The notes under the pieces were generated by a model. The model ran no database searches. It was not told the DNA's origin and saw nothing but the letters and a program-made list of their open reading frames with translations. Positions 46,009-47,289 of a stretch of DNA of 64,000 bases are shown piece by piece. Within the stretch, counting starts at the first letter, position 1. Each line of letters opens with the position of its first letter. The stretch is from an uncultured Porphyromonadaceae bacterium (GTDB lineage Bacteria; Bacteroidota; Bacteroidia; Bacteroidales; Muribaculaceae). The position numbers and the translations under genes were made by a program. The stretch covers positions 16,399 through 80,398 of the forward strand of contig CANOLV010000011.1 in the NCBI GenBank assembly GCA_947567425.1. Reading direction: 5' to 3'.

Positions 46009-47043
46009 TTAGTCTTTTTTAACTTTTTGTGTAATCTTTTCGCGGAATTTCAGATGCCGTTTGATTTTCTCGTCCGAAGAATCCCCATTGTTATCAAGCA
46101 TGCTCCACAGTAGGTCGTTATACAAGTCCTGCAGACGCCCCGCCTTATCCATGGCGTCGATACGCCTCCGCCTTTCCGTCTCGAACATTTCGGAGTATCG
46201 ACGTTGCGTATCCCTGGCCATGCGCAGTTCATAGCGTAAATCGTCAATCCATTTTGCAAGCTCGTGCGTGGCATCATTCTGATTTTCCGCTTCGGGTTGT
46301 CGAAGCAGTAGCCCGACAGTTTCCACAGTGTCGTTTGCCTCAGGGAACGGTAGGGCCACCACCTCCGGCTGCGGCAAAGCTTTATGGGCCATGCCCCACG
46401 CGCCTTTATAGGCTTTCTTGATCGTATCTTTCGCCCCATAGCGCATAACTCCCATCAGAGCATCGAGACCTTTTTGGGTTATCAGGTACTCATAGCCATG
46501 ACCATACATCCCGCTGGTGTAGGCACGTCTTGTAAAATGCCCGTATTTGAATGCCCGGCTGTGCAGATTGTCTCCTATTGTCCGAGTAAGCGAACGGTGT
46601 TTACGGCCAAGAATCCGAGCCAGTTTGCGGGATGTCGTTACCGGTTTGCCTTCCACTATTTCAGTTAAACCACTGATGCAGTGCTGATTATCAATGGGGG
46701 GGGGTAATTGTGGAGCGGTTGCGGGCTGTTGCGGAGCGGTGTGCTGCTTCTCATTCTCCAATTCCTCCCAACGGAGAATCAGGCGGGCACGCGCCTCATC
46801 GTTGAACTTGGTCGCGATGTATAGACACTCGGCTTTGGTAAGCACATAAAACGGTTGTTTCACCTCTCCTCCGGTAGCTAACTTGTTGATTTTGTATTGG
46901 AGTGCAAATTTGCGCCCCAAGGATTTTTCCCATGCAGGCTCCATATTTCGGATAGCCCGCAATACATCTTTGTGTCGCTTACCTGTGGCCTCTGCGATTT
47001 GCAGAGAGGTCATTGTCTGACCATTCTTGATTAAGTTTGTCAT
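46009..47043 (-). CDS. Phage regulatory protein with two Rha-type domains
   Basis: The start at 47043 (MTNLIKNGQTMTSLQIAE) gives about 344 residues. Residues 1-95 are a pRha domain (RHKDVLRAIRNMEPAW, then KPFYVLTKAECLYIATKF-like). A Pro/Gln-rich linker follows, coded partly by a C9 run. A second Rha-like domain lies at about 118-215 (VTTSRKLARILGRKHRSL, then YLITQKGLDALMGVM). The last about 100 residues are charged coiled coil. Rha proteins act as phage regulators or antirepressors. The gene lies, unusually, between terminase and portal. Its leader (47044-47289) holds a promoter, an intrinsic terminator and repeats. Confidence 0.78.
   Translation of the reverse strand: MTNLIKNGQTMTSLQIAEATGKRHKDVLRAIRNMEPAWEKSLGRKFALQYKINKLATGGEVKQPFYVLTKAECLYIATKFNDEARARLILRWEELENEKQHTAPQQPATAPQLPPPIDNQHCISGLTEIVEGKPVTTSRKLARILGRKHRSLTRTIGDNLHSRAFKYGHFTRRAYTSGMYGHGYEYLITQKGLDALMGVMRYGAKDTIKKAYKGAWGMAHKALPQPEVVALPFPEANDTVETVGLLLRQPEAENQNDATHELAKWIDDLRYELRMARDTQRRYSEMFETERRRRIDAMDKAGRLQDLYNDLLWSMLDNNGDSSDEKIKRHLKFREKITQKVKKD
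46696..46704. repeat. G9/C9 homopolymer inside rha
   Basis: A run of nine G on the plus strand (C9 in the coding strand) lies in the Pro-rich linker between the two Rha domains. A change of one base would cut the protein to its first domain. Confidence 0.6.
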
Positions 47044-47251
47044 TTTTACTTGATACGTTTGGCATTTTAGACAGAAAAAAAAACGGCTGTCATATCCCGT
47101 CGCCAAACGTACCAAGGTTTCACTCCGCAGAGCAAACTATGATTGGATATGACAGCCGTAGCCGTTTATTTATTGGGCATAAAAATAGCCCGAAGTATGT
47201 CCGAGCAATAACCGACGCTCGTGCGGAAAGGTGAGACCTTCGATACATTTG
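47044..47251 (-). promoter_or_regulatory. Structured rha leader with competing hairpins
   Basis: About 207 nt of untranslated leader. On the minus strand: element B0 (GCCAAATGTA, 47245-47254); small stems AAGGT/ACCTT and GGGC/GCCC; stem A1 (ACGGCTGTCATATCC, 47145-47159); B1 (TACGTTTGGC, 47102-47111) inside its loop; A2 (47083-47097) closing a 15-bp perfect stem; a T9 run; then B2 (GCCAAACGTA, 47054-47063), 11 nt before the ATG. B1 can pair with B0 or with B2; with A1:A2 the second pairing is a pseudoknot. This suggests a termination or translation switch, or else operator sites. Confidence 0.55.
47075..47159 (-). terminator. 15-bp terminator in the rha leader
   Basis: Arms at 47145-47159 and 47083-47097 are perfectly complementary; the 47-nt loop is long, and nine A on the plus strand give a T9 tail on the minus strand. 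It ends terminase-region transcripts and any transcript from the promoter at 47258-47289. Confidence 0.7.
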
Positions 47252-47257
47252 GCATCG

Positions 47258-47289
47258 CAAAGCTACGACAGAAAATCGGAATGCGCAAC
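47258..47289 (-). promoter_or_regulatory. Candidate promoter of the rha leader
   Basis: Minus strand GTTG (47286-47289), 20 nt, TAGCTTTG (47258-47265). Transcription would start near 47251, just at the first GATACATTTGGCAT repeat. Confidence 0.55.

Follow-up and report, generated by a model that had tools for sequence, protein, structure and literature searches.

The window, i.e. the whole stretch of 64,000 nt analyzed here, lies in a prophage. PHROGs, which matched 7 of 8 tested proteins, identify a terminase large subunit on the upstream side and, on the downstream side, portal, head protease, major head and major tail proteins; a leader with a Rha-domain gene sits between terminase and portal. 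This gene, rha (46009..47043, minus strand; ATG at 47043), encodes 344 aa and matches Pfam PF09669 (E = 6e-22) as well as the PHROG anti-repressor and Rha-like families. The leader copy occupies about 47254-47044 on the minus strand, and read-through would lead into rha. Its promoter (47258..47288, minus strand) consists of TTG (47288-47286), a 20-nt spacer and TAGCTTTG (47265-47258), the form that the promoter motif of Bacteroidota takes in the description of PMC7366714. A run of nine Gs at window 46696-46704 (C9 on the coding strand) lies inside rha and is a candidate for slippage or phase variation.

A sequence-only reading of this DNA had reported a promoter, a terminator hairpin with a T9 run and three mutually pairing 10-mers (GCCAAATGTA at 47253-47244, TACGTTTGGC at 47111-47102 and GCCAAACGTA at 47063-47054), and all of them are present on the minus strand where it had placed them. 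Additional to these are the hairpins P1, P4 and P6, a pseudoknot, tag helices of ~16 nt and the element A3. In RNA order the leader reads B0 - P1 - pseudoknot - P4 - A1 - P6 - B1 - A2 - U-run - A3 - B2 - AUG, all on the minus strand. B0, the 5'-terminal tag GCCAAATGTATCGA (47240..47253), pairs with B1, the antisense tag CCTTGGTACGTTTGGC (47102..47117), which lies in the terminator loop and is complementary to both B0 and the second tag B2, GCCAAACGTATCAAG (47049..47063), located 5 nt ahead of the ATG. The P1 hairpin AAGGT/ACCTT (47228..47240) is followed by an H-type pseudoknot (47203..47226), formed by P2 (47226-47224 with 47214-47212) and P3 (47220-47217 with 47206-47203), and by the P4 hairpin GGGC/GCCC (47175..47191), which carries a U-run in its loop. 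The terminator arms A1 (47145..47159) and A2 (47083..47097) form a perfect 15-bp helix around a 47-nt loop containing the small hairpin P6 (CUC-UGCG-GAG, 47123..47132). The U-run (T9, 47075..47083) shares its first T with the A2 arm and, judged from the sequence, is the predicted 3' end of the RNA, while A3 (CTGTC, 47070..47074) can pair with the GACAG of A2 (47091-47087). The fold of the 217-nt window leader is 5.1 sd better than that of shuffles (z = -5.1), and 0 of 200 shuffles were as good. The 10-mer by itself is not clearly rare within the window, with 14 matches at no more than one mismatch against 8.1 expected, a number reached by 5 of 100 shuffles.

Among 99 genomes searched at the DNA level (relatives plus the window's own), 8 gave matches, three of these in at least three places. 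The covariance model R1, built from 11 of 13 aligned copies, found matches in 71 of the 397 host-family genomes searched, the window's own among them; most carry one copy and one carries five. Restricted to genomes with completeness of 90% or more and contamination of 5% or less, the count is 49 of 222. A search for the exact pattern returned 16 stretches in IMG/VR phage contigs and 23 in named genomes, these being Muribaculaceae, Porphyromonadaceae, Barnesiella, Bacteroides and Dysgonomonas records plus one Clostridium and one Staphylococcus. The names of these last two records (L033, Clostridium sp.; L037, Staphylococcus sp.) look wrong, and both appear to belong to the window's own family instead. 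Three copies lie on contig NZ_SPPC01000004.1 of Barnesiella sp. WM24. Of 121 distinct model hits with a length of 140 nt or more, 15 were set aside, either for a flank shorter than 90 nt or for failing a loose promoter pattern; they comprise antisense or weak hits and some real-looking ones (L045:82, L061, L025, L107). The 106 hits kept gave 104 non-redundant copies, or 103 without the antisense hit L051:6797. TAnnTTTG stands directly upstream in 88/121 unfiltered model hits and in 89/103 filtered copies, for which the filter itself had required a loose form of the promoter pattern. In 87 of these 89 promoters an upstream TTG is found at 17-23 nt, compared with a mean of 16/103 for shuffled upstreams. 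Rfam 15 recognized no family at gathering score in 20 loci, a DNA search of phage records gave no match, and no report of such an RNA in Bacteroidota was found in the open-licence PMC literature. Within these searches, the leader is one copy of a structured RNA family in which the RNA family and the host phylum are new and the architecture is of a known type.

The helices of this family were assessed on an alignment of 98 hits (93 distinct, a few doubtful), which was fitted to the model structure and is hence biased towards it, except for P2. P1, P2, P3, P4, A1:A2 and P6 together are paired in 91.5% of cells versus 77.0% after shuffling, and 434 cells are changed on both sides versus 126 after shuffling, each helix contributing; these counts are uncorrected for relatedness. 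The A1:A2 terminator is paired in 95.1% of cells, with double-sided changes in 14 of 15 pairs and a permutation z of 13.3. P1 (permutation z = 13.6) has double-sided changes in 4/4 counted pairs but just 72.1% of its cells paired. For P4, 86.7% of cells are paired and 5/6 pairs show double-sided changes (z = 7.0), and for P6 the paired fraction is 97.6% (z = 5.2). In the pseudoknot, P2 is absent from the structure of the model that built the alignment, yet 94.0% of its cells are paired; P3 reaches 97.4%, and each pair of the pseudoknot carries double-sided changes. In the alignment-free permutation test P3 was unsupported (z = -2.9), probably owing to misplaced windows, and the hairpins T1 (z = 2.3) and P7 (z = 2.1) were weak. 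T1 (GCUCGAA/UUCGGGC, before the P4 U-run) was considered as a first terminator and rejected, with core changes one-sided only and covariation unsupportive. A2:A3 was also weak in the general permutation (z = 1.9). Among the 71 copies with the common form of A2, the A2/A3 letters are A-T in 23, G-C in 39, G-T in 4 and A-C in 0, with no A3 in 5, an association with Fisher p = 5e-14, uncorrected for relatedness. A small terminator-like hairpin at window 47206-47188 competes with P3 and P4 and shows no covariation support; a leader peptide and a hammerhead-like core were both dropped after inspection of a few copies by eye.

These data bear on whether the repeats act as RNA at all. The copies mark accessory cassettes among phage genes in two annotated regions, as a recombination or cassette-insertion site with merely RNA-like inverted repeats would, but most helices contain G-U pairs, and promoter, U-run and start codon hold fixed places. 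We therefore consider a DNA-level element of this kind very improbable.

The pairing of the tags can be judged independently of the search, as R1 contains no B pairing and B2 lies outside the model altogether. Across the 104 non-redundant copies, tags paired with their own partners better than with permuted ones, by dozens of sd on average. Own B1:B2 helices had a mean score of 17.2 versus 8.6 (sd 0.18) when permuted, and own B0:B1 helices one of 15.8 versus 7.8; the own partner was strictly the best in 81/104 copies for B1:B2 and in 76/104 for B0:B1. Because the relatives' own pairing beats permuted pairing in this way, a chance origin of the tag pairing is excluded. Using tighter windows and a cut at a helix score of at least 11, own B0:B1 passed in 101/103 copies and own B1:B2 in 99/103, compared with 5.1% and 4.9% of mismatched pairs, respectively, and both helices passed in 97/103 non-redundant copies. 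Two of the four copies below the cut for B1:B2 are clearly without B2. The tags also hold their places. In 95 of the 97 strong-helix copies, the end of B2 falls within a range from 5 nt inside an ATG to 7 nt ahead of it, and the B0 helix starts 3 or 4 nt past the model start in 74/103 copies, which would make B0 the 5' end of the RNA. By contrast with these constant helices, 96 of 99 tag codes are distinct, and tag helices that are near-universal although their codes differ amount, as far as sequence comparison goes, to three-way covariation. The sequence-only reading had put forward an RNA switch and named covariation in related prophages as its test. Such covariation was found for B0/B1/B2 and for A1/A2, and the RNA-switch reading is supported by both the tag helices and the covarying A1:A2. 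In a few copies B2 seems by eye to be split (L143, L146, L148, L152), with an outer GTCAAAC part and an inner part separated by a ~10-nt insertion. Two others (L144:1501-1670, L023:2778-2989) have a good B0:B1 and no convincing B2 before the next ORF and are possible orphan RNAs.

An ORF of at least 25 aa is present at B2 in 101/103 copies, and these ORFs fall into 22 clusters with no common known pathway. The same reading had suggested that the leader controls a probable antirepressor. In the window copy the leader is indeed followed by Rha, but an antirepressor is not the usual target, as of the 101 leaders with an ORF one precedes Rha, and most tested products belong to no known family. Among nine small-ORF representatives, Bro-N was the single Pfam family above cut-off, the other eight having none. 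A PHROGs search with eight small proteins and Rha gave a match for Rha only, and eight small proteins (two of them second ORFs) had no NCBIfam hit above cut-off and no PADLOC hit better than E = 0.009. In a genome with three cassettes (G008), one lies ahead of the head maturation protease gene, one ahead of the tape measure gene, and the third among genes without a PHROG match or outside the search. The first ORF ends in GG plus 1-4 residues in 61/101 cases. A recurrent ~80-aa family without a membrane stretch (..DYLAEKGY..GWI..) appears as the first ORF at L018:13012, L021:11958, L072:1501 and L053:9760 and as a second ORF at L009. In a few copies (e.g. L015, L016) GGAGG-like DNA precedes a further small ORF, an unusual feature in a phylum that lacks Shine-Dalgarno sites.

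At least one hydrophobic stretch of membrane-spanning length occurs in 56/101 downstream ORFs, including 44 of the 50 members of the largest cluster. Together with the covering of the start codon by an antisense element, this is what loci resembling type I toxin-antitoxin systems would show, with the terminated RNA as antitoxin and the small, often hydrophobic product as toxin. However, the antisense element here shares strand and promoter with the gene, whereas in classical type I systems it typically does not, and 45/101 products, Rha and a Bro-N protein among them, have no hydrophobic stretch. This explanation is improbable in our view.

To what extent the codes diverge was examined in closely related copies. 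In 18 pairs with cores at least 90% identical, code identity was 0.66 against a background of 0.61, whereas P1 (0.73) and A1 (0.91) keep pace with the core. On one contig (G052), identities outside the tags range from 0.86 to 0.96 across the six pairs formed by its four copies, and those of the compared tags from 0.00 to 0.80; these cassettes encode near-identical 88-aa products behind four different tags. These findings dispose of the alternative that the sequence-only reading had kept open, namely that the repeats are three operators recognized by a DNA-binding protein, for instance Rha itself. Repeats in both orientations close to a promoter and a regulator gene would suit operators. Yet the tags share no sequence, occupy fixed places in the RNA frame and differ even between the four cassettes with near-identical products, the middle copy lies inversely oriented in the A1:A2 loop, and Rha is a rare downstream gene. 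As a general explanation, operators are refuted, and we give them next to no credence.

Private codes suggest action in trans, and the divergence is what RNAs working in trans would need to keep loci apart, a reading drawn from sequence comparison. Background-level code similarity could also stem from drift with compensation or from cassette exchange. One G052 pair, with 0.80 of the compared tag letters identical, counts against trans action. Mismatched tag pairs from the same genome were no weaker than other mismatched pairs (8.1 versus 7.45), which leaves avoidance of cross-talk unsupported. For the window tag, no other target with fewer than two mismatches (G-U allowed at one position) was found in its own genome besides B2 and the B1 site; ten matches have two mismatches, and the total of 12 compares with 13 for a reversed control.

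We then compared the energetics of the competing folds. The medians of B0:B1 and B1:B2 are -27.3 and -28.0 kcal/mol (-28.0 and -27.4 in the window), and B1:B2 is the stronger helix in 58/103 copies. The impression that B1:B2 is much stronger than B0:B1 was an artefact of long windows. Toehold displacement of B0 by a longer B1:B2 was also rejected, as on the 5' side of B1 this helix is longer in 35 copies, shorter in 51 and equal in 13 (n = 99). Given the order B0-A1-B1-A2-A3-B2, B0:B1 with A2:A3 (ON) and B1:B2 with A2:A3 (OFF) are each nested and incompatible with the terminator fold (STOP), itself nested, and three states are proposed on this ground. With pseudoknots ignored, folds of the window leader constrained to STOP, OFF and ON have -72.2, -72.0 and -76.0 kcal/mol, and the free optimum is -77.8 kcal/mol. 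The preferred fold varies with the chosen ends, being B1:B2 for 47257-47041 and B0:B1 from 47254 to 40 nt beyond the ATG, which we read as a near balance of alternatives in these models. The sequence-only reading had also proposed that pairing with the last copy makes a pseudoknot over the terminator. The B1:B2 pairing covaries, but it need not take the form of such a pseudoknot because A2 can pair with A3 inside a B1:B2 stem.

We propose that the leader of this phage accessory gene is a three-state RNA switch whose terminated RNA also acts in trans, a reading that we moderately favor. The conserved anatomy and the covariation of its helices are observed; from them we infer transcript ends, the order of the states, trans action and timing. 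In the ON state, B0 would pair with newly made B1, so that A1 is held in the loop and A1:A2 disfavoured; A2 would be free to pair with A3, leaving B2 and the start codon exposed and the gene readable. In the STOP state, A1:A2 would form and transcription stop at the U-run; the product would be an RNA of ~180 nt whose terminator loop contains B1. In the OFF state, reached by read-through transcripts, B1:B2 would mask the start codon. Such masking would fit a phylum in which, according to the portion of PMC6847099 considered here, Shine-Dalgarno sites are naturally lacking and structure close to the start codon tunes initiation. In trans, B1 of the terminated RNA may pair with B0 or B2 of new transcripts from its own locus and drive them to STOP or OFF, a step modelled on phage P4 CI RNA and P1/P7 C4 RNA. 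The gene would then be on when the phage enters a cell free of this RNA or upon induction, and silent in an established lysogen. More tentatively, each cassette might carry a private, fast-diversifying three-part address (B0-B1-B2), the terminated leader having no targets but its own locus and incoming phages that bear the same code. One prophage would thereby hold several independent RNA immunity specificities, each arising from a pair of interlocked three-way choices of helix (B0/B1/B2 and A1/A2/A3); this is possible, although we would not yet count on it.

The main competitor is a purely cis-acting attenuator or translational switch, in which the nascent leader picks its fold by transcription speed, a ligand or a pseudoknot-bound protein and the terminated RNA is a useless by-product. 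In its favor, one transcript carries all the elements, the alternative folds have nearly equal energies, and the P2/P3 pseudoknot is conserved and covarying, as expected of an aptamer or protein site. Moreover, the best predicted fold of the terminated RNA alone has B0:B1 rather than A1:A2, so B1 would be hidden from trans targets. A cis switch alone, however, leaves the code differences in nearly every copy unexplained, even among near-identical cores. The hairpin T1, which would couple the pseudoknot to termination, has no covariation support. We regard the cis-acting switch as a possible but rather unlikely account. Compared with a riboswitch, the leader has a conserved, covarying pseudoknot that could be a ligand-binding domain, a linking hairpin (T1) that covariation does not support, and downstream genes in 22 clusters with no known pathway in common.

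The three-state switch with trans action has counterparts among phage RNAs. In the part of PMC4825925 on phage P4, the CI RNA (seqA-CI-seqC) is processed from the primary transcript and its pairing leads to premature termination; there, as here, an antisense element has complementary copies up- and downstream. An order of the seqA-seqB-seqC type, its middle antisense to both flanks, is present as B0-B1-B2 in 97/103 copies. Differently from P4, an intrinsic terminator is built here around the antisense, the downstream copy lies over the start codon and the host phylum is another. C4 likewise has target copies upstream and downstream of c4. The C4 RNA of P1/P7 is described as an antisense RNA cut from a larger transcript, with loops that cover the ribosome-binding site of the antirepressor mRNA and a variable specificity loop linked to heteroimmunity; the table of Weinberg 2010, in the portion considered, has C4 and also c4-a1b1. 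As with C4, the antisense element has its complementary target where translation of the downstream gene begins. Control of an antirepressor, another C4 trait, would concern the window copy (Rha) and one followed by Bro-N, the other eight small representatives being without a Pfam family. C4 is ~77 nt and processed by RNase P, whereas the present RNA, at ~180 nt, brings a promoter and a terminator of its own, contains a pseudoknot and precedes many different genes. The C4 covariance model RF01695 matched neither the window copy (E up to 5) nor the L018 copy (E up to 1).

P22 sar RNA is not known to be a leader of its target. As an antisense RNA blocking translation of a phage antirepressor (PMC12197685, in the part on sar), it shares this block with the proposed OFF state. 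IsrK of Gifsy-1 is described in PMC4825925 as having its own promoter, a short terminated RNA and a translationally inactive read-through mRNA leading to an antirepressor gene, with alternative structures, the short RNA acting on its own mRNA and activating translation. Promoter, intrinsic terminator and read-through gene are found here as well, a likeness of anatomy only, and the passages of PMC4825925 on IsrK concern one locus and describe no three-tag architecture. If the proposal is true, RNA-based self-control of phages of the P4/C4 type, described in the sources considered for E. coli, Salmonella and relatives, would extend to gut Bacteroidota, and the leader would be a marker for accessory gene cassettes of unknown function. 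Its codes would amount to a natural collection of nearly 100 different antisense pairs that share one scaffold, which makes specificity and cross-talk directly testable, and the family may yield RNA parts for work in Bacteroides. It also poses an evolutionary question, as three separated sequences change jointly while the remainder stays constant.

Beyond the host family, matches are sparse, with 10/393 genomes of the order, 7/295 of the class and 4/296 of the phylum, the window's own genome being included each time. We inspected 19 loci outside the family. Seven (L163, L165, L167, L168, L169, L171, L172) are chance-like matches, and L161 has B0:B1 only. In L164, L156, L170 and L173, B1:B2 is present (scores 10 to 17.5) with B0 weak or missing. 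Both tag helices are found by score in six loci (L155, L157, L158, L160, L162, L166) and by eye in L159, where the scripted window was misplaced. In three of these distant loci (L166, L170, L173), B2 lies at an ATG, as judged by eye.
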